From Gammaproteobacteria bacterium (lineage in GTDB: Bacteria > Pseudomonadota > Gammaproteobacteria > Poriferisulfidales > Poriferisulfidaceae), in NCBI GenBank assembly GCA_026706895.1, contig JAPOXW010000028.1, positions 1-37,591 of the forward strand: a stretch of 37,591 nucleotides of DNA, written 5' to 3'. A program made the position numbers and the translations under genes. Below the pieces are notes generated by a model, which worked only from the letters and a program-made list of their open reading frames with translations, ran no database searches and had not been told where the DNA came from. This document shows, piece by piece, positions 4,355-37,191 of the stretch (its first letter is position 1; every line of letters begins with the position of its first letter).

Positions 4355-6051
4355 CCGGTCCCTCCCGGCGAAGCCTGGATCATCAATTCCTGGTTGTCCG
4401 GCGGCACGTTCAGCAGGCGCAGCGCCTCGCGCGCCACTTCCCGGAACACCGGTCCGGCCACCTCGCCGCCGAAATACCTGCCACTGCGGGGGGTGTCCAC
4501 CAGCACCAGGATCGCCAAGCGAGGATGCCGCGCCGGCACGACCCCGGCGATCATCGCGACGTGGTGCCGGTCCGAGTAGACGCCGTCGACCATCTTGCGC
4601 ACCGTGCCGGTCTTGGCCGCCACGGTGTAGCCCGGCAGTCGCACCCGCCGGGCGGTTCCTTCGGGCCCGGTCACCCCCTGCAGCATGCGCAACACCGCAT
4701 CGCAGTACTCGCGCGGGAGCATGCGCTCGCCGTCGGCCTGCGGGTGGGCCAGGAAACTGATCGGGTGGCGCACGCCGCGGTTGCCGAGCACCATGTACGC
4801 CTGCGCGATGTGCAGCGGCGTCGCGGACAGGCCGTAGCCGTAGCCGAGGCTGGCCTGGTCGGTGCGCACCCACTGGTCCGGTTCGCGCAGAATGCCGACC
4901 GCCTCGCCGGGGTAACCGATCCGAAGCGGCTGTCCGAAGCCGATCCGGTCGAGCGTCTCCCACAGGGTGTCGCCGGGCAAATCCAGTGCGATGCGGGCCG
5001 CCGCCACGTTGCTGGACTTGACCAGGACGCCGTGGAGATCGAGTTCTCCGAAATTCCGGATGTCGCTGATCCGGTGCCCGCCGATGCGCCAGTGACCGGG
5101 CGTGGTGTCAATCCGGTCGTTCGGGCCATAGATCCCGCTCGCCAGTGCGACCAGGACGGTGAACGGCTTCATCACCGAGCCCGGCTCGTAGAGGTCGGTG
5201 ACGGCACGGTTGCGGCGCCGGTCGGGGTCGGCGGACCGATCCCCGTTGGGGTTGTACGAAGGTGCCTGAACCATGGCCAGCACCTCGCCGGTGACCACGT
5301 CCAGGACCACCACGGTGCCGCTCTGCGCGCGGTGCTTGAGCACGGCCCGTTGCAGTTCCTGGTAGGCGTGGTATTGCAGCCAGAGGTCGATCCCGAGACG
5401 CAGGTTCTCGCCGTGCTTCGGCGGACGCAGCTGAGCCAGGTCGTCGATGATCCGGCCATGGCGGTCCTGCCGCACCTGGCGCGCGCCCGGCTGTGCACGC
5501 AGGCGCGAGTCGAACGCGAGCTCGAGTCCCTCTTGTCCCTTGTCGTCGATGTCGGTCCCGCCGAGCAGCTGCGCCGCGACCGCGCCTGCCGGGTAGTAAC
5601 GGCGGTATTCCGTGACCAGGCCGACACCCGGGATCTGCAGCGCAGTCACCTTTTCCGCCTGGCCCGGCGTGATCTGCCGGCGCAGGTAGACGAACTTCCG
5701 ATCTTGCCGGTCGAGCACCAGCCGCTTCAGCTTCGGCCGGGACAGGTTCAGCAGTTTGGACAGTTCGAGCCACCGGCCCTCCACCTTGAGCAGCGACTTG
5801 GGCTCGGCCCAGACCGACTGCACCGGGGTGCTGATTGCGAGCGGTTCGCCGTGCCGGTCGAGCAGCATGCCGCGGGACGCCGGGATCGGCACCGTCCGCA
5901 ACTGCCGGCTTTCGCCCTGCGCGGTCAGGAATTCCTGTTCGGCGTACTGCAACTGGACGGCACGGCCGACCAGGCCGATTCCGATCAGCAGGAACAGGCT
6001 CAGCACCAGGCGGCGGCGCCAGTTGTAGGAGACGCGGCGGGCAACCTTCAT
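4351..6051 (-). CDS. ftsI: Peptidoglycan D,D-transpeptidase FtsI (PBP3)
   Basis: FtsI is the septum-specific transpeptidase of the divisome. The 566-residue protein has a short basic cytoplasmic N-terminus, one membrane anchor (about residues 16-32, LSLFLLIGIGLVG), a PBP dimerisation domain with SRGMLLDRHGEPLA, and a penicillin-binding domain. The catalytic motifs are visible: SVMK (active-site serine tetrad, in EPGSVMKPF), SSN (in VKSSNVAA) and KTGT (in AAKTGTVRK). It overlaps ftsL and murE by ATGA junctions. Confidence 0.97.
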   Translation of the reverse strand: MKVARRVSYNWRRRLVLSLFLLIGIGLVGRAVQLQYAEQEFLTAQGESRQLRTVPIPASRGMLLDRHGEPLAISTPVQSVWAEPKSLLKVEGRWLELSKLLNLSRPKLKRLVLDRQDRKFVYLRRQITPGQAEKVTALQIPGVGLVTEYRRYYPAGAVAAQLLGGTDIDDKGQEGLELAFDSRLRAQPGARQVRQDRHGRIIDDLAQLRPPKHGENLRLGIDLWLQYHAYQELQRAVLKHRAQSGTVVVLDVVTGEVLAMVQAPSYNPNGDRSADPDRRRNRAVTDLYEPGSVMKPFTVLVALASGIYGPNDRIDTTPGHWRIGGHRISDIRNFGELDLHGVLVKSSNVAAARIALDLPGDTLWETLDRIGFGQPLRIGYPGEAVGILREPDQWVRTDQASLGYGYGLSATPLHIAQAYMVLGNRGVRHPISFLAHPQADGERMLPREYCDAVLRMLQGVTGPEGTARRVRLPGYTVAAKTGTVRKMVDGVYSDRHHVAMIAGVVPARHPRLAILVLVDTPRSGRYFGGEVAGPVFREVAREALRLLNVPPDNQELMIQASPGGTG

Positions 6052-6314
6052 GGGCTCAGCAGGTTGACCTTCGACGGGTCGGGCCGGCGCATGCGCAGGC
6101 GTTTCGTCGCTTCCTTTTCCACGCGCGCGTAGGCGGCCAGGGTGCCCTGTTCAAGCAGCAGCCGCCCCCAGTCGGTCTGCAGGCGGTGGTAAGTCTCGCG
6201 CTGTTCCTGGATCTGCTTGAACGCGGTCTGGTTCGAGTGCTTGACGTAGACCACGCCGATCGCCACCGTGAGGTTGGCGAACAGGAGCAGGCCCCACAGG
6301 ATCATGCCGCGCAT
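6048..6314 (-). CDS. ftsL: Cell division protein FtsL
   Basis: FtsL is a small bitopic divisome protein that forms a complex with FtsB and FtsQ. The 88-residue product has one membrane segment at about residues 4-22 (MILWGLLLFANLTVAIGVV) followed by a periplasmic helical part rich in Gln, Glu, Arg and Leu (KQIQEQRETYHRLQTDW), typical of its coiled coil. The assignment rests on size, topology and its fixed position between rsmH and ftsI. An alternative start three codons later (6305) is possible. Confidence 0.9.
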   Translation of the reverse strand: MRGMILWGLLLFANLTVAIGVVYVKHSNQTAFKQIQEQRETYHRLQTDWGRLLLEQGTLAAYARVEKEATKRLRMRRPDPSKVNLLSP

Positions 6315-7234
6315 GGCAACCTCCGGGCGGTACGCAGCCGGGCCGAGCGGGCGCGCGGGTTGCGGTCGATTTCGTCGGAGGCCGGGCGAACCAGATCGAA
6401 TACTTCCAGCACGGGCTCGAACGGCGGGGCCGGCCGATGCCGGCCGACCGGCGGCGGCTGGCTGGCCGCGCGCAGGAAGCGCTTGACGATGCGATCCTCC
6501 AATGAATGGAAACTGATCACCGCAAGCCGCCCTTCGTCCGCCAGCAGCGCGACGACCTGCCCGAGCAGGGTTTCCAATTGCTCGAGCTCGCGGTTGATGA
6601 AGATGCGGATCGCCTGGAAGCTGCGGGTGGCCGGGTGCAGGCGCGCCTCGGCCCTCGGCACCGTGCGTTCGATCAGTTGCGCCAACGGGCGGGTGTGGGC
6701 CAGGGGAGTGTGTTCGCGGGTCTCGACGATGGCGCGGGCGATGCGCCGGGCGTAGCGCTCCTCGCCGAATTCGGACAAGACGCTTGAGATCTCGTCTTCC
6801 GCGGCCTGTGCGAGCCACTGCGCGGCGGTGCGCCCGTCGCCGCTCATGCGCATGTCGAGCGGACCGTCCTCGCGGAAGCTGAAGCCGCGTTCCGGAGAAT
6901 CAAGTTGTGCCGAGGAGACGCCGAGGTCCAGCAGCAACCCGTCGACTTGCCGCTGCAGGCCAGCCTGGGCGAGGCGCTCGGGCAGGGTCGCGAACGCATC
7001 CTGCACCACGGTCACTCTCGGGTCGCCTCCGAACGTGCGGTGGGCGTGGGCGCAGGCTCCGGGGTCTCGGTCCACAAGCCATAACCGGCCACCATGGCCG
7101 AGTCGCGAGAAGATTTCGCGCGCATGTCCGCCGCGGCCATAAGTGGCGTCGACGTATAGGCCGTCGGGACGGAGGGCGAGTCTGACCAGGGTTTCGCGCA
7201 GAAGGACCGGTTCATGCGTCTGCCCCGCCGCCAT
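6302..7234 (-). CDS. rsmH: 16S rRNA (cytosine1402-N4)-methyltransferase RsmH (MraW)
   Basis: RsmH methylates N4 of C1402 in the decoding centre of 16S rRNA using S-adenosylmethionine. The 310-residue product begins HEPVLLRETL and has the SAM-binding region DATYGRGGHAREI, followed by LDLGVSSAQLDSPERGFSF and ISFHSLEDRIVKRF, all RsmH signatures. The ATG at 7234 overlaps the mraZ stop by one base (TGATG), and the gene runs 13 bp into ftsL. RsmI, which methylates the 2'-O of the same nucleotide, is encoded nearby at 8322-9164. Confidence 0.97.
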   Translation of the reverse strand: MAAGQTHEPVLLRETLVRLALRPDGLYVDATYGRGGHAREIFSRLGHGGRLWLVDRDPGACAHAHRTFGGDPRVTVVQDAFATLPERLAQAGLQRQVDGLLLDLGVSSAQLDSPERGFSFREDGPLDMRMSGDGRTAAQWLAQAAEDEISSVLSEFGEERYARRIARAIVETREHTPLAHTRPLAQLIERTVPRAEARLHPATRSFQAIRIFINRELEQLETLLGQVVALLADEGRLAVISFHSLEDRIVKRFLRAASQPPPVGRHRPAPPFEPVLEVFDLVRPASDEIDRNPRARSARLRTARRLPCAA

Positions 7235-30987: not shown

Positions 30988-31769
30988 AAACGGCGCAGGC
31001 GCACGTCGGCACTGTCGAACCGCCGCATGCCTTCTTCTCCTTCGACTTGCAGGTATCCACGGTCGTCCACGCCCTGCGCGCGACCCGCGTATGTCTGGCT
31101 TGGTCCGGTCACATGCACCTCGCTATCCCTGAGACCGTCGTACGGCTCAAAGTATGCCTTAAGTTTGCCCGGAGCGCCACTGTCCAACCGAATGAGGCAA
31201 GCGACGACCGACTCGATCAGGCCGGCAGCCAAGTGGTTCGGGTCGGGAGACTGCCCGCAGGCACGGGCGATCGAGGTGGTCTGGCGATCCAGTTCCGGTG
31301 CGTCTTCCACGTTGACGCCCACCCCGACCACGCAACGGGTCTGGCCACTGCGGGCACGGCATTCGGTGAGGATCCCGCCGAATTTCGCGGAACCGTGCAT
31401 GAGGTCGTTCGGCCAGTTCAGGCAGGGCTGGCCCAACCCCATCTCGCGCAGGCGCTCGATGAGGGCGATGCCGGCCCACAGGGCCAGAGCCGGCGGCGCC
31501 TCCGCCGGGAAGGCGTGCAACACCGAAAAGCACAGGGCTCCGTCGGCCGTCTCCCAACTCCGGCCCTGCCGTCCCCGCCCTCCGGTCTGACGCCGTGCGA
31601 TCTGTACCCGGTCGCGGACGATCGCATCGTCATCAAGGATGTCGTTGGTGGAGGCAACTTCGTCGGCCACTTCGGCCTGGCCAATCCGGGCACGGGTCTC
31701 CTCGGACAAGGCCTCGGTGATCCGTTCAGCGTCTAATGGCAGAGGAGCAGGAAATGCAGTCATGGGCAT
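30984..31769 (-). CDS. birA: Biotin--[acetyl-CoA-carboxylase] ligase BirA, without DNA-binding domain
   Basis: BirA attaches biotin to the carboxyl carrier protein. The 261-residue product contains the biotinyl-AMP motif GGRGRQGRSW, LNWPNDLMHGSAKFGGIL and VVGVGVNV, then a C-terminal SH3-like domain (YAGRAQGVDDRGYLQVEG). The start (ATG 31769, or 31763) is placed just before the catalytic domain. The N-terminal winged helix of E. coli BirA is absent, so it should be a monofunctional ligase that does not repress biotin genes. Confidence 0.92.
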   Translation of the reverse strand: MPMTAFPAPLPLDAERITEALSEETRARIGQAEVADEVASTNDILDDDAIVRDRVQIARRQTGGRGRQGRSWETADGALCFSVLHAFPAEAPPALALWAGIALIERLREMGLGQPCLNWPNDLMHGSAKFGGILTECRARSGQTRCVVGVGVNVEDAPELDRQTTSIARACGQSPDPNHLAAGLIESVVACLIRLDSGAPGKLKAYFEPYDGLRDSEVHVTGPSQTYAGRAQGVDDRGYLQVEGEEGMRRFDSADVRLRRL

Positions 31770-31861
31770 TGACTCAACAATGAGCTTTAAGACATTCGTC
31801 AATCCCTGCCCAAATCACTGAATGCTCGTGTCGTGGAATGCGAGAGGCGGTTTTCCGCCCA

Positions 31862-31870
31862 TGTTACAAT
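31862..31870 (+). promoter_or_regulatory. Candidate extended -10 promoter of the moxR operon
   Basis: TGTTACAAT at 31862-31870 fits the extended -10 pattern TGnTAnAAT; no -35 is evident. Initiation near 31877 would place the structured element at 31887-32004 in the 5' leader. A small GGCGG-TTTT-CCGCC hairpin lies just upstream (31846-31859). Confidence 0.45.
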
Positions 31871-31886
31871 GCCACCACAACATCAC

Positions 31887-32019
31887 GAGAAGGGTTGACA
31901 CCCTCACCAACCTGCCTGACCCAGGTAAGGTGGTTTCCGAAAGGAAGATGTGGCCACATCCGGCAATCCGATGGGTCCCCGAGAATATTGTGTCAACCCT
32001 TCTCAAGCCTGAAGGAGGG
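31887..32019 (+). promoter_or_regulatory. Candidate structured leader RNA (riboswitch-like) of the moxR operon
   Basis: Perfect 15-nt arms GAGAAGGGTTGACAC (31887-31901) and GTGTCAACCCTTCTC (31990-32004) can close a multibranch structure. Inside lie CACC-A-ACCTG / CAGGT-AA-GGTG (31905-31932), TTCC-GAAA-GGAA with a GNRA loop (31935-31946), the palindrome GATGTGGCCACATC (31947-31960) and CGG-CAAT-CCG (31961-31970). The 3' arm can instead pair CCTTC (31999-32003) with GAAGG (32011-32015), covering the Shine-Dalgarno GAAGGAGGG. Mutually exclusive helices are the usual layout of a translational switch. It does not match any riboswitch consensus that I know. A mobile element is the main alternative. 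Confidence 0.6.
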
Positions 32020-32026
32020 TTTAGCA

Positions 32027-33463
32027 ATGCCGCATTCTCGGAATTCAAAAACACCGGAAACCGTTTCCAGGAAAAAAGCGCCCCGAAAGGCCCGGGTCAT
32101 CCGGGATCTCGGCATCTTCGGATTCGACCACATCGAGCCGGTCATCCTGGCTGCCCTCATCACGGAGGAGCCAATGCTGCTGATCGGCCAGCATGGCACG
32201 GCGAAAAGCCTCCTGATGACGCGCATCTCCGAGGCGCTCGGCCTGGAGTTCCGCCATTACAACGCGAGCCTGATCAACTTCGACGACCTGATCGGTTTTC
32301 CCGTCCCGTCCGACGACGGACAGCTCAAGTACGTGCAGACGCCGGCCACGATCTGGCAGGCCGAGACGGTGATCTTCGATGAAATCAGCCGCTGCCAGCC
32401 GGAGATGCAGAACAAACTCTTCCCGCTGGTGCACGAACGGAAGGTTCAGGGCCTGGACCTAGCGAACCTGCGCTATCGCTGGGCCGCCATGAATCCGCCG
32501 GCGGACGAGGGCGATGACAGTGGTTATATCGGATCAGAGCCATTGGATTCGGCATTGGCCGACCGTTTCATTTTTGTCGTCAAGGTGCCCACGTGGAAAC
32601 AGCTGGGTAAGGCAAACCAACGTGCCATCATCGCCGGCGAAGGCGAACACTTCCAGAAACAGTCTGCTGACATGCTGCAGGATTGCATCGCCAAGGGCAG
32701 GACCTTTCTGAGCGAATCTACGAATAGGTTGGGCAGATACATCGTGGAGTACGTGCAAGCACTGATTCCGCTCCTTGCCGAAGCGGGACTGGAGTGCAGC
32801 CCACGGCGGGCCCGCATGTTCCACCAGGCGATTCTGGCCACCCATGCGGCAACTATGTCGACAGTTGGAGGATTTGACCCGGCAGAAACGACGCTGCTGG
32901 CTGTTAGCAACGCCCTTCCACAACGAGCCGAAGGCATCTCCGTACCCGAAGGGAAGTTGCTTGCCGCGCATCGGGAAGCTTGGGCGTGCTGCCGCGGCCT
33001 CTCGGACAGTGCCATGGCAGCTATCCTCGGCACGCAAGATCACCGAAAACGGGTCCGGCTGGCATTGGAATCTCCGAATTTGACGAGGGACGAATTCTCG
33101 ACTGTCGTCTCGGATGCTTACGCTGCTCTAGAACCCGGTGCGCGCGAGGCCCTAGTCGTCTGTCTGTTCGACGCTGATGCCGTCGGACGATTGAACGCCC
33201 CGGTCGCCGAGCAGATGGCGGAGGTCTATGCGGGCATCACCGAGTCTCGCTATTATCGCTACCGCGGTAGGCGAATAGAAGAAAACAACTGGGGCACCGT
33301 CGCGAACGTCTTGTCTCGGCCCCGGCAAGACGACAAGTCATTCTCTTTTCTCGAGAATGCCCTCCTCCGGCATTACTTTGCAAAGCGGCGCTCCCCCGAT
33401 ATCGATCAGTTCCCGGATGCGTGGACCTCAACGATTCAGGATTTCTCGGGCACTGTCACATGA
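32027..33463 (+). CDS. MoxR-family AAA ATPase
   Basis: The 478-residue product has a basic N-terminus, then the MoxR ATPase core: Walker A GQHGTAKS (residues 54-61), Walker B VIFDEISR (D118/E119), and the sensor-1 region RWAAMNPP (N156), with the substrate-loop pattern FDDLIGFPVP before it. MoxR ATPases act as chaperones that load or mature proteins, usually with a vWA partner, which is encoded two genes on. The start at 32027 has the strong GAAGGAGGG 8 bases upstream. An open frame extending to 31838 runs through the structured leader and is rejected. GC content is lower than in the dcw genes. Confidence 0.9.
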   Translation: MPHSRNSKTPETVSRKKAPRKARVIRDLGIFGFDHIEPVILAALITEEPMLLIGQHGTAKSLLMTRISEALGLEFRHYNASLINFDDLIGFPVPSDDGQLKYVQTPATIWQAETVIFDEISRCQPEMQNKLFPLVHERKVQGLDLANLRYRWAAMNPPADEGDDSGYIGSEPLDSALADRFIFVVKVPTWKQLGKANQRAIIAGEGEHFQKQSADMLQDCIAKGRTFLSESTNRLGRYIVEYVQALIPLLAEAGLECSPRRARMFHQAILATHAATMSTVGGFDPAETTLLAVSNALPQRAEGISVPEGKLLAAHREAWACCRGLSDSAMAAILGTQDHRKRVRLALESPNLTRDEFSTVVSDAYAALEPGAREALVVCLFDADAVGRLNAPVAEQMAEVYAGITESRYYRYRGRRIEENNWGTVANVLSRPRQDDKSFSFLENALLRHYFAKRRSPDIDQFPDAWTSTIQDFSGTVT

Positions 33464-33535
33464 TCTGGAAGATACACGGCCATTGCGATCAACTTGCCAA
33501 CATCCAGCTGGGACAAAAAGCAAGGTGGATCATTC

Positions 33536-34372
33536 ATGGGGCAGGACAACTGGACAGGCAGATGGATTTTTGATGTCCAACAGATATTCCTGATAATGCC
33601 TACCGACTCTGCTCACATCACAATAAGCTACGATCCTGTAGAACGGAAGTCGCAGCAAAAAAACTATCTGGCCACAATAGCCGCGAACCCGTTGTCGCGG
33701 TCGAATGTACTCAAGCCCCTCGATGCAATTAATTCGGGCCATGAGGAGGGGGTCCGGCACTATGGGCCGGCAGACTGGAAGATCGACTATGCCCGTGATT
33801 TCTGCCTGGGAGACTGCGATGCCGGCCGCTGGGTCGCGGTCAGCCTTCCGGATTGGCTCTTGGCGTGCCTGAAAGACGGTCATCCCCAAGGTGATGCCCG
33901 GTCAGAAACTTCTCCGCAATCTCCCCATCTGCGGGAGATTCTACGCCGGATATCCACCTCTTCACACTCCGACCCCGAGAAAGAACTGCGGAGGAAGATC
34001 GAGAAACGAGCTCGGGAACTTCCATTTCCCGGCGCATGTCTGGTGAAAAAGTTGGATGTCGTACAAGATTTCATGCCCCATGAACGATCTATAGATTCTT
34101 CGCAATGCGCCCAGACGGAATCGACACCTCTCCTCGCTCCGAGGCACCATGCCCTCACCCCGGCGCCTCTATGGTTTTGGGAGGATGATCTCATGGGGCA
34201 GTTAGCCATCATTACTCAGTCTGCAGAGCATGTCTGGCTACGCAACAAGCGGCCTATTCTCAACCGAATCCGCTACACATATGCTCACATGGCGGTCTTG
34301 TTGCCGAAAAACTTCTCTAACCCCCACCTCCGGGCAGTCCGCCCCCCGCACCTCAAGGAGATTCTATTGTGA
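33536..34372 (+). CDS. Unrecognised protein between the moxR and vWA genes
   Basis: The 278-residue product matches no family I recognise. It begins MGQDNWTGRWIFDVQQIFLI and has WKIDYARDFCLGDCDAGRWVAVSLPDWLLACL around residues 85-115 (WVAVSLPDWLL core), a charged helix EKELRRKIEKRAREL and a Trp/Phe-rich APLWFWEDDL. No signal peptide or clear membrane helix is seen. The start at 33536 is chosen because AAGGTGG lies 7 bases upstream; a longer frame from 33494 lacks such a site. Its stop overlaps the vWA start (GTGA), so the three proteins are likely made together. It may be the adaptor or substrate of the MoxR/vWA pair. Confidence 0.75.
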   Translation: MGQDNWTGRWIFDVQQIFLIMPTDSAHITISYDPVERKSQQKNYLATIAANPLSRSNVLKPLDAINSGHEEGVRHYGPADWKIDYARDFCLGDCDAGRWVAVSLPDWLLACLKDGHPQGDARSETSPQSPHLREILRRISTSSHSDPEKELRRKIEKRARELPFPGACLVKKLDVVQDFMPHERSIDSSQCAQTESTPLLAPRHHALTPAPLWFWEDDLMGQLAIITQSAEHVWLRNKRPILNRIRYTYAHMAVLLPKNFSNPHLRAVRPPHLKEILL

Positions 34373-35712
34373 ACATGCTTGAGCGACAGATTCTCGACTG
34401 TTTCCCAAGTGGAAAGTATGCCCTGACGAGCCTGCTTCGTTTGGTGGACATCGTGGAAAGTGATCACGTTGCAACAGCCTCGGTCGAATGTGGAAATCAA
34501 CCACGCCTGCGAATCAATCCCACCTTCGTGAAGCAACACGCAGAGACGCCGGAAAAACTGCTCATGTTGGTCATGCATGAATTGCATCACGTTCTGCTGG
34601 GGCACACCCGGCTGTATGAGAAAATCACCCCGATCGACAACTTCGTCTTCGACTGCGTGATTAACGCCATGCTCTCGCGCATGTTGCCACAACCGGAATA
34701 CCTCCGGCTGCTGACCGACTTCTATTCCGACAAAAAGTTCCCGGAGTGTCTGCTTCGTCCGGCATCCGCCAAGAACCCGGAACGGGCGCAATCCATCCCC
34801 ATGGCCATTCAGGCATTTCCGCAGGACACGCGCAAGTTTTGGGAGGAACTGTACAAGAGCCTGTATTCCGAAACCGGGGTCTCCTACGACGAAATCCGAA
34901 ATGCTTTGGCCTTGAGGCTGTACGAAGACACGGTATCGGCTATTCCGCTTCTTGGCGAGCATTTTGAAGACGGAGAAGATGGACATGCCGATGAAACAGG
35001 CTCATCGCCCTTAATTGACATTCTCATGGAAACGGCGGAAACATGGCCCAAGCCAGGCAGGGGTCAGTCTTGGGCCGAACTAGTGCAACAAGCCAAGGTG
35101 GACTTGCGCCCAGTACCCGGCAACCGCTCCGTTTTGCGGAACCTCTTGGCCCGGCTCGGAAGGCACCGAAGCGACAGGGGGAGCAGTACTGCGTCTGATG
35201 CAAAGTGGTCTCCCCCGACCCCGTTGCCCAGCCTGAACCGGCGGGCTGCCGTATTACGTGCGCTCGGGGTCCAGCCGATGTTTCATCCCGGGGAGGCGAA
35301 ACATCTCCGCAGAACACGCACGAACGACAAGGCCCACGTCTACGTCGATGTGTCTGGCAGCGTAACCGATGTGCTGCCGGCAATCTACGGCGCAGTCAGC
35401 GATTGCCGTTCCTGGATTCATCCGGTGGTGCACATCTTCTCGACCGTGGTCCACGATCTTGCCTTCCAGAAACTTCAGTCCGGGCAGGTTGACACGACTG
35501 GCGGCACGAACATCGCTTGCGTTGCCGAACATATGGCAACCCACAAGGTTTCCCGCGCTTGCATCATTACCGATGGGGTCATGACAGAGCCGGAAAGTTC
35601 CCACCTCGAGACTCTACGCCAAGCCCGACTCGGAATCGCTCTAGTGGGCGATAATTCCCGTGCCTGGATAACCGAAGTCGCCGATCAAATGGCCACACTC
35701 ACATCAATGTAG
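34369..35712 (+). CDS. HExxH metallopeptidase-like plus vWA domain protein (DUF2201/COG3864 type)
   Basis: The 447-residue product has an N-terminal zincin-like domain with HELHH (H70, E71, H74) in LLMLVMHELHHVLLGH and a downstream NFVFDCVINAML, the pattern of the DUF2201 N-terminal domain. A variable linker follows, then a C-terminal vWA-like domain with an intact MIDAS: DVSGS (D327, S329, S331), TTGGTN (376-381) and ITDG (D402). It is predicted to bind both zinc and magnesium and to partner with the MoxR ATPase. GTG 34369 is preferred over ATG 34375 because AAGGAG lies 8 bases upstream. Confidence 0.88.
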   Translation: MNMLERQILDCFPSGKYALTSLLRLVDIVESDHVATASVECGNQPRLRINPTFVKQHAETPEKLLMLVMHELHHVLLGHTRLYEKITPIDNFVFDCVINAMLSRMLPQPEYLRLLTDFYSDKKFPECLLRPASAKNPERAQSIPMAIQAFPQDTRKFWEELYKSLYSETGVSYDEIRNALALRLYEDTVSAIPLLGEHFEDGEDGHADETGSSPLIDILMETAETWPKPGRGQSWAELVQQAKVDLRPVPGNRSVLRNLLARLGRHRSDRGSSTASDAKWSPPTPLPSLNRRAAVLRALGVQPMFHPGEAKHLRRTRTNDKAHVYVDVSGSVTDVLPAIYGAVSDCRSWIHPVVHIFSTVVHDLAFQKLQSGQVDTTGGTNIACVAEHMATHKVSRACIITDGVMTEPESSHLETLRQARLGIALVGDNSRAWITEVADQMATLTSM

Positions 35713-35723
35713 GAAGACTCAGC

Positions 35724-36041
35724 ATGCTGGAAAATTCGCATAAGAACTTGGTCTGCCTGCTGGAAAAAGATCACGGGGGCTCGGAACTGGGAATCGTGTG
35801 GAGGAAGAAGAAAACGCGGTTTGCTTTTGTTGCTGTTTTTGTGAGGCACCGGTTGAATTCTCCTCCCTGTATTTCCTCCTGTCGGCTGTTCGTTGACGAA
35901 GAAACCGGGCAGTATTTCCTCCGGGTAGTCATGTATCCCGAAACTTTCACTGACGTTGAAGAAAAGGTTTATTGGAGGCCCGTGTCAAAAAATGTGGGAG
36001 ACATGATCGCCAAGAAATCGAGAACAGAGAGTTCAGGGTGA
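35724..36041 (+). CDS. Small unknown protein downstream of the vWA gene
   Basis: The 105-residue product has AGGAAG 7 bases before its ATG and begins 11 bp after the vWA stop, so it is probably the fourth gene of the operon. It is basic, with FAFVAVFVRH and CRLFVDEETGQYFLRVVMYPE suggesting a small beta-rich domain. No family is recognised. Confidence 0.65.
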   Translation: MLENSHKNLVCLLEKDHGGSELGIVWRKKKTRFAFVAVFVRHRLNSPPCISSCRLFVDEETGQYFLRVVMYPETFTDVEEKVYWRPVSKNVGDMIAKKSRTESSG

Positions 36042-36111
36042 GGCAATGGCCCTTTGAACTCTTCCTGACGGATAAGGGTGGCGACCTTCTTGACGAGAAA
36101 GGCTTTCCGCC

Positions 36112-36303
36112 TTATTTGCTAGAGGCTTCTTGCCGGGTGTCCGAGACATTGATAAAAGCCTGTTTCATATCCCACCCGAGGCATTCCTCCTCGGAACGGC
36201 CAACATCCTCAGGCAAGGGTTTGCTTCGCGCAAAAACCTCATCAAGCCTATCTGCAGCCGCATGACGGTCCATCTTATCTGAAGGGCGTGATTTTTCGGG
36301 CAC
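36112..36303 (-). pseudogene. C-terminal remnant of an AbrB/VapB-type antitoxin
   Basis: From ATG 36273 (or GTG 36303) the minus strand encodes MDRHAAADRLDEVFARSKPLPEDVGRSEEE and ends at 36112. VDRHAA also occurs in the intact AbrB antitoxin at 36837-37130, and the DNA agrees there over about 15 of 17 bases (TGGACCGyCATGCGGCy). The remnant lacks the DNA-binding beta-fold that should precede this point. It lies 11 bp after the PIN toxin gene. The assignment is tentative. Confidence 0.4.
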
Positions 36304-36314
36304 CGTATTGCCCC

Positions 36315-36758
36315 TTAATCCTCTTTCATAAGGACGGTGAACTCTTCCTGTTCGAAATGATGGTCCGAGGTTAGCACCTTCTGGATAGAGTGGGCTTTCA
36401 TTGTGTTCATCGAGATGCAGTCCGTCAGACTGTAATCCTTGTCGGCTCTGTCTTCATACAACTCCAGCCCTTGGTCGAAAGAGTCGCGAGACTGGGGAAC
36501 GACTTCGATATTCGAGTTGGATCGAATCTCCCGTACAGCGGCTATCGTCGTCCTGCGCAATCGCATGCCTTCTTCGCGACCCAATTGCTTTCCCTTCCCG
36601 GAAAAAGCCGCAAGGACTTCAGCGAGCACTTCATCCGTTGTCACCAAAAGGGGCTGCCGCCCAAGCTGGCTTTTTGCCACTCTTGCCACACCCGCCCATT
36701 GATCTTTCGGATTTATGGCTGCGATCCAATAGACCGTATCGACAAAAATCTTCTCCAC
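36315..36758 (-). CDS. PIN-domain toxin (VapC-like ribonuclease)
   Basis: The 147-residue PIN protein shows the four acidic positions of the metal site: D7 (IFVDTVYW), E43 (TTDEVLAEVL), D113 (SLTDCISM) and D132 (TSDHHF). VapC toxins cleave specific RNAs when freed from their antitoxin. It lies 78 bp after the AbrB-type antitoxin gene on the same strand, a larger gap than in most vapBC pairs. Confidence 0.9.
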   Translation of the reverse strand: MEKIFVDTVYWIAAINPKDQWAGVARVAKSQLGRQPLLVTTDEVLAEVLAAFSGKGKQLGREEGMRLRRTTIAAVREIRSNSNIEVVPQSRDSFDQGLELYEDRADKDYSLTDCISMNTMKAHSIQKVLTSDHHFEQEEFTVLMKED

Positions 36759-36836
36759 CGGACAATCTACCCGTGCGCAACCAACCTCGTCAGTACATTC
36801 ATGGAAACGGCGATCGTGCTCACATCACCTTGCTAT

Positions 36837-37130
36837 TTACAGGTAGTCATCATGCCTGGCGGACAGGTCCGGGGGGATATGATCCCAATCGCTTTCTGGA
36901 ATTTGTTTTGCGATGCGGGCCAAGGCGTCTTCAATCGGTTCTGCCTCTGAATCAGATAAGGATTCCCCAGCCGGGATGGCCGCATGGCGGTCCACCACCT
37001 CTTTTAGGCGAAAGAGAATGCCGTCCCCGACGGCAGAGGCTTCCATCAAGTCGCCCTCATGCAGGTCGACTTGCTCGCGCAACTTCGCAGGGATGGTGAC
37101 CTGGAATTTCGGCTTTACGGCAACCAGCAT
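36837..37130 (-). CDS. AbrB/SpoVT-fold antitoxin (VapB-like)
   Basis: The 97-residue product begins MLVAVKPKFQVTIPAKLREQVDLHEGDLMEA (KFQVTIPAKLRE core), the swapped-hairpin AbrB DNA-binding pattern. An acidic C-terminal tail (SEAEPIEDALARI, SDWDHIPPDL) would wrap the PIN toxin. GGAGGAAAT directly precedes the ATG. A TATAAT at 37174-37169 and a GGAAA/TTTCC inverted repeat (37149-37165) upstream could be an autoregulated promoter. Confidence 0.88.
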   Translation of the reverse strand: MLVAVKPKFQVTIPAKLREQVDLHEGDLMEASAVGDGILFRLKEVVDRHAAIPAGESLSDSEAEPIEDALARIAKQIPESDWDHIPPDLSARHDDYL

Positions 37131-37168
37131 ATTTCCTCCAAAAAAGTTGGAAATTCTTACTTTCCTAG

Positions 37169-37174
37169 ATTATA
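37169..37174 (-). promoter_or_regulatory. Candidate -10 element of the antitoxin-toxin operon
   Basis: The minus strand reads TATAAT here, about 38 bp before the antitoxin ATG, with TTTGTT 16 bp upstream as a poor -35 that overlaps the rRNA terminator T-run. Confidence 0.45.
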
Positions 37175-37191
37175 CATGTGCCATTCCTTAA

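Follow-up and report, generated by a model that had tools for sequence, protein, structure and literature searches.

Riboswitches of the SAM-I/IV class, which respond to S-adenosylmethionine (SAM), have a P2 helix that is not split by an internal loop and lack the pseudoknot PK-1 (PMC2864571, PMC6890682), and SAM-I riboswitches are without the pseudoknot PK-2 (PMC6890682). MoxR-type AAA+ ATPases paired with a protein carrying a von Willebrand factor A (vWA) domain, such as NorQ/NorD, act in client remodelling and metal insertion (PMC13036017, PMC9976466); few of the clients of this large class are known. The two meet in a 37,591-nt stretch of a gammaproteobacterial genome of the Poriferisulfidaceae (contig JAPOXW010000028.1, assembly GCA_026706895.1), here called the window, where a structured leader RNA precedes an operon of moxR, a middle gene and a DUF2201/vWA gene. 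Judged from its sequence, the leader (31875–32029) is very probably a SAM-I/IV riboswitch with translational OFF logic, and is a new member of a known RNA class.

The Rfam model RF01725 (SAM-I/IV) matches the leader over its full length (model positions 1–99 of 99) with 65.0 bits against a gathering cut-off of 41.1 and an E-value of 9e-11. A sequence-only reading of this DNA had proposed an undescribed RNA class, naming an Rfam match as what would refute it; that proposal falls. All the base pairs of P1–P5 and PK-2 are standard, with coordinates given in Table 1. P2 has one bulged base, is not split by an internal loop and is not accompanied by PK-1, as in SAM-I/IV riboswitches. Several of the internal hairpins described earlier are present, and the one with a GAAA loop is P4. 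The 14-base palindrome (GATGTGGCCACATC) exists at the sequence level; the aptamer fold, however, divides it, one part falling in the 3′ strand of P1 and the other in P5. PK-2 covaries in ten aptamers located upstream of homologous moxR genes, with 95.6% of cells paired, both sides changed in four of the five pairs, and a score equalled in none of 500 shuffles; the strands were chosen by eye, favouring pairing, and the double changes in a fixed register are the stronger part of this result. The leader fold is more stable than those of dinucleotide shuffles (z = −4.14; 0 of 200 as stable). The genome contains this one SAM-I/IV copy, and a genome search found neither a second nor any SAM-I riboswitch.

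A strand 3′ of the aptamer can pair in two ways. With the 5′ half of the aptamer it forms a perfect 15-bp helix (GAGAAGGGTTGACAC with GTGTCAACCCTTCTC, 15/15 pairs), and it is also complementary to the Shine–Dalgarno (SD) region of moxR. The 15-bp helix had been taken as the closing stem of the leader. It is present as described, but its 5′ strand comprises J1/2 with the 5′ strand and loop of P2, and therefore it cannot coexist with the aptamer; it is the anti-aptamer helix of the ligand-free state, and the true P1 is a different, shorter helix. The earlier pairing of CCTTC with GAAGG also exists, displaced by one nucleotide (31998–32002 with 32011–32015, not 31999–32003). The favoured SD-sequestering pairing is longer, formed by the strand from 31995 with GAAGGAGGGUU, and the start codon is paired too. 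The 15-bp and sequestering helices are indeed mutually exclusive, and the suggestion of a ligand-responsive translational switch of two exclusive helices before a MoxR/vWA (DUF2201) operon looks right.

With SAM bound the aptamer would keep P1 and P2, and the freed 3′ strand would fold onto the SD and AUG, leaving moxR untranslated. With SAM absent the anti-aptamer helix would form, the SD would be free, and the operon encoding MoxR, the middle protein and the zincin-vWA protein would be expressed. The fold of 31875–32080 is calculated at −68.6 kcal/mol when the aptamer is enforced and at −68.7 kcal/mol with the anti-aptamer helix, a near-equal balance that SAM binding would shift to OFF. On going from the aptamer to the anti-aptamer fold, the unpaired fraction increases from 0.08 to 0.44 for the SD and from 0.20 to 0.82 for the AUG. 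The energy model thus predicts that the SD is sequestered in the ligand-bound fold and exposed in the ligand-free fold. Transcripts ending at 32004–32025 are predicted to favour the anti-aptamer helix, and a transcript extended to 32045 the aptamer with a sequestered SD. Shuffled sequences matched the dual complementarity of the switching strand in 0 of 200 cases for the window, 1 of 200 for the related locus L060 and 0 of 200 for each of L097 and L058; the design is built from differing sequences in all four. The aptamer match and the complementarities are read directly from the sequence, and from them we infer the direction of control and SAM binding, which in this class is expected to discriminate against SAH.

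Table 1. Coordinates of the leader RNA, the operon and the island in the window
Feature	Position	Strand	Remarks
SAM-I/IV riboswitch aptamer	31875..31980	+	RF01725 match, full-length
P1 of aptamer	31880-31884 with 31947-31951	+	cmscan alignment; 5/5 pairs standard
P2	31889, 31891-31895 with 31900-31905	+	4-nt loop, no internal loop
P3	31906..31934	+	holds core segments CCAACC, AAGGTGG
P4 with GAAA loop	31935..31946	+	P4 present as in SAM-I/IV
P5	31953-31955 with 31962-31964	+	
PK-2 pseudoknot 5′ strand GACCC	31918..31922	+	pairs with 31973-31977
PK-2 pseudoknot 3′ strand GGGTC	31973..31977	+	joins P3 loop to segment 3′ of P5, as in SAM-I/IV
Anti-aptamer helix 5′ strand (J1/2 + P2 5′ strand and loop)	31887..31901	+	15/15 pairs with 31990-32004; excludes P2
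Switching strand	31990..32004	+	partner is aptamer 5′ half (ON) or SD (OFF)
SD- and AUG-sequestering hairpin, SAM-bound state (predicted)	31979..32041	+	fold with aptamer enforced
SD AGGAGG of moxR	32013..32018	+	8 nt before ATG 32027
moxR, MoxR-type AAA+ ATPase (P0001)	32027..33463	+	PF07728 9e-11; PF20030 bpMoxR 1e-6
Middle gene (P0003)	33494..34372	+	listed start TTG; ATG at 33536 possible
DUF2201/vWA protein (P0002)	34369..35712	+	HELHHVLLGH zincin motif, DVSGS metal ion-dependent adhesion site (MIDAS)
Small open reading frame after vWA gene	35724..36041	+	no relative found
5.4-kb island between birA and 5S rRNA gene	31767..37187		site empty in congeners G001, G004

Riboswitches precede many homologues of this moxR. 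When 84,980 species genomes were searched with a MoxR alignment, 80 loci from many phyla emerged, and RF01725 matches in the genomes of these loci lie overwhelmingly just upstream of moxR. Two covariance models, made from upstream SAM-I/IV and SAM-II copies, were run on all 1.0 Mb of locus sequence. At E ≤ 0.5, 83 of 88 matches lie on the moxR strand no more than 2 kb upstream (59 of the 80 loci), and at E ≤ 1e-4 the figure is 57 of 62 (37 loci); since the models were built partly from the same loci the E-values of training members are circular, while the positions of the other matches are not. The riboswitch is within 700 nt of the moxR match in 52 loci. Three architectures occur before moxR homologues, SAM-I (RF00162, 73.8–78.3 bits in L054 and L068), SAM-I/IV (RF01725 above cut-off in L078, L071, L082 and L095) and SAM-II (RF00521 in L073, L050 and L102). 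As Rfam confirms or adds these loci, about 44 of the 80 pass strict criteria. Most of the remaining weak matches show the SAM-I core CAUC..GAG – CAACC – GGUG – GAUG.

Tandem copies are common, with two SAM-II riboswitches in L033, L048 and L062, and three SAM-I/IV in L096. SAM-I/IV and SAM-II stand together in L044, L088, L098, L100 (7588–7812), L103 and others, placing two unrelated aptamers for one ligand before one gene. In L033 (7756–7870) and L062 a terminator-like hairpin and its T run come after a first SAM-II aptamer, and another SAM-II copy follows close to the start codon; transcriptional and translational control may be combined here. Some SAM-II copies lie 2.6–4 kb upstream of moxR (L069 at 4892 and 5061, L074 at 3864 and 4041, L055 at 5341), that of L055 being directly before a canonical-type metK (5472–6635). 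A small open reading frame of about 87 aa, mostly in Verrucomicrobia and with weak DUF6538/HEPN_AbiU2 similarity, lies between the riboswitch and metK or moxR in L042, L045, L051–L053, L061, L066, L078, L082 and L083.

No convincing riboswitch match was found in 17 loci of other MoxR families, with L003, the first relative found, as positive control. Eight Anaerolineae loci that form one branch differ in their middle gene, and neither a metK-like gene nor a riboswitch was found in them. Some loci without a match end close to moxR (L086, L091 and L083). Mapping the four riboswitch labels onto the MoxR tree takes 21 changes, a count that missed matches would inflate; for the SAM-I-clan label a minimum of 13 follows from the starred branches by themselves. 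Gain, loss or exchange of SAM control has thus recurred with the target constant.

The window moxR product contains Walker A (GQHGTAKS) and Walker B (DEIS) motifs, and the Walker-motif ATPase is encoded in one operon with the MIDAS vWA protein, as in MoxR AAA+/VWA systems. Profile matches of the vWA protein to DUF2201_N and VWA_CoxE are weak and under the curated cut-offs. Across the family Walker A is present in 77 of 80 and Walker B in 80 of 80 members, all 65 vWA proteins carry the HExxH zincin motif, and 62 of the 65 the DxSxS MIDAS. The middle protein of most relatives belongs to a small family marked by an N-terminal GGPxSR motif, and its predicted fold (pLDDT 83.5) had no match among solved structures. 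P0003 occupies the same slot; it showed no significant sequence similarity to the relatives' middle protein and no match in Pfam, NCBIfam or PADLOC.

The operon is clustered with a homologue of SAM synthetase (PF00438) in 53 loci, of which 47 divergent members were aligned. In most loci the riboswitch is followed first by moxR, and most operons close with the divergent SAM-synthetase gene, an order kept across phyla. One divergent member matches solved methionine adenosyltransferases (MATs) with 118.7 bits over 313 residues. The catalytic residues His14, Asp16, Glu42, Asp118 and Lys165 (E. coli numbering throughout this comparison) are present in 47 of 47, Asp238 and Lys245 in 46, and Lys265 and Asp271 in 44 with gaps in the rest; Lys269 is replaced by His in 32. 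The methionine-binding residues are different, Glu55 being found in 0 and Gln98 in 5 of the 47. We take these two to be the counterparts of Glu70 and Gln113 in the human enzyme. Human Glu70 and Gln113 bind methionine through its amino nitrogen and carboxyl oxygen, and the Q113A variant retains 75% activity (PMC6850014), and therefore loss of the glutamate weighs more than loss of the glutamine. A canonical-type metK lies near the operon in L040, L053, L055, L061, L080, L082 and L091. In the isolate Cnuella takakiae RG1-1 (L041, 11164–12356) the metK-like gene looks interrupted and reads as two overlapping frames, through a frameshift or a sequencing error.

The window operon lies on an island that is absent from congeners. 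In blastn comparison with the congener loci L127 and L129 the flanks are 80–97% identical and adjacent, with a 4-nt gap, and in congeners G001 and G004 the 5S rRNA gene follows birA within a few bases. The G+C content is 56% over 31822–36050 against 65% over 1–31800. Neither the riboswitch nor the vWA gene was found in any of 54 related genomes, including five congeners; close moxR relatives were limited to two among 274 genomes of the class. A conservation search returned only the window itself from 398 genomes of the phylum, one weak match from plasmids and none from viral contigs. From these sequence comparisons the window operon is judged to be horizontally acquired. Congeners G002 and G003 have different insertions between birA and the rRNA operon, and the site is therefore an insertion hotspot. 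The island also encodes a PIN-domain protein (36315–36758, minus strand) and a MazE-type antitoxin (36837–37130, minus strand), and a stretch at 36184–36944 is 74% identical to one at the same site in G002.

The placement of the riboswitches and the altered SAM-synthetase gene point to a new function in SAM metabolism. Possibly, on a tentative analysis of the operon, its products would form a SAM-repressed MoxR/zincin-vWA machine serving SAM synthesis or a SAM-linked enzyme; by analogy with NorQ/NorD, an AAA+/vWA pair for remodelling or metal insertion would support such a step during SAM shortage, and in most relatives its likely client or partner would be the divergent SAM synthetase at the end of the operon. 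A more specific version, put forward as a conjecture, is a widespread, mobile SAM-repressed system in which the MoxR motor and zincin/vWA protein might assemble, activate or process a neofunctionalised SAM synthetase with an altered amino-acid pocket; at low SAM this enzyme might then produce SAM by an alternative route, or another adenosyl compound instead. Several observations weigh against the proposal of a SAM switch controlling such a machine. The window operon has no SAM-synthetase gene and the sole metK of the genome is ordinary and located elsewhere; the functional link therefore depends on the relatives. About 10 of the 59 matching loci reach no Rfam cut-off, the dual-complement test was not significant in L088, L063 and L081, and the thermodynamic model behind the fold energies takes account of neither the pseudoknot nor the SAM-binding energy.

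The missing gene could mean that the riboswitch arrived with a mobile operon for a metK-like gene since lost, the MoxR/vWA genes being a remnant and SAM control a relic here. Neither a metK-like gene nor a remnant was found in the island, the genome has one canonical metK, and the operon is absent in congeners, all of which would fit. Yet no damage is seen in the aptamer, pseudoknot, switching strand, SD or open reading frames, and locus L027 likewise has a SAM riboswitch before moxR-vWA and no metK-like gene, with none within 6 kb after the vWA gene in L071; a relic is rather unlikely. Retention of the riboswitch with moxR and vWA in these two loci, the window copy and L027, suggests that the MoxR/vWA pair is in its own right a meaningful SAM-regulated target. 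The same two loci make it doubtful that the divergent gene encodes a true SAM synthetase and is the target of the riboswitch, with MoxR/vWA as incidental co-passengers. SAM riboswitches commonly precede metK, and all the catalytic residues are kept, but the conserved order in most loci places moxR next to the riboswitch and the metK-like gene farthest from it. An anti-phage conflict system switched on by SAM depletion, for example by a phage SAM-degrading enzyme, would suit the patchy, mobile distribution and the island hotspot with its PIN/MazE pair, and MoxR and vWA genes appear together in papers on described conflict systems (PMC8195603, PMC10907252). It is nevertheless improbable; there is no recognised effector domain, and the consistent partner is a SAM-synthetase homologue, which better fits SAM supply. 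Membership in a known defence system was rejected, no component having a PADLOC match at E 0.01. A new riboswitch or thermosensor class closed by the 15-bp helix, which is real and forms the minimum free energy fold of the short transcript to 32025, can be dismissed as highly improbable and is rejected by the full-length RF01725 match with its conserved core, by the covariation of PK-2 and by the destruction of P2 in that helix.

The preferred proposal, a SAM-repressed MoxR/zincin-vWA machine, would matter in two respects. Three riboswitch architectures, interleaved on the tree of one MoxR family, independently place that family in SAM metabolism and supply the inducing signal, and the altered methionine site of the SAM-synthetase homologue marks that protein out as a candidate for a new activity within a central cofactor pathway. 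A literature search that most subscription journals lay outside brought up nothing that connects SAM riboswitches or SAM synthetase with MoxR or vWA genes, and an earlier description is possible; the link of SAM control to this MoxR operon family appears undescribed, and the sequence-only reading had known of no RNA class linked to DUF2201-type MoxR operons.

Described systems resemble parts of this locus or of its relatives. The relatives' divergent operon member is like MetK/MAT (PF00438) in aligning over 313 residues with its catalytic residues kept, and unlike it in that Glu70 (human numbering) is missing from all 47 sequences and Gln113 from 42 of them; such a gene is absent from the window. 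The window MoxR domain just passes the PF20030 model of the MoxR–vWA–beta-propeller ternary systems (bpMoxR; 28.1 against 27 bits), whereas no beta-propeller component is seen in the window operon. The leader shares P1–P5, PK-2, the unsplit P2, the conserved core and a score above the curated cut-off with SAM-I/IV riboswitches (RF01725; Weinberg et al. 2010, PMC2864571), and differs in preceding a MoxR/vWA operon, MoxR being unmentioned in the main text of that paper. With NorQ/NorD, RavA/ViaA and other MoxR AAA+/VWA pairs (PMC9976466, PMC13036017, PMC10585395) the operon has in common a MoxR ATPase and a vWA partner encoded together, but here the vWA protein carries an HExxHxxxxH zincin motif, and there is an extra small protein, usually a metK-like gene, and SAM control. 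The window operon is apparently an undescribed, SAM-regulated variant of the MoxR/vWA systems.
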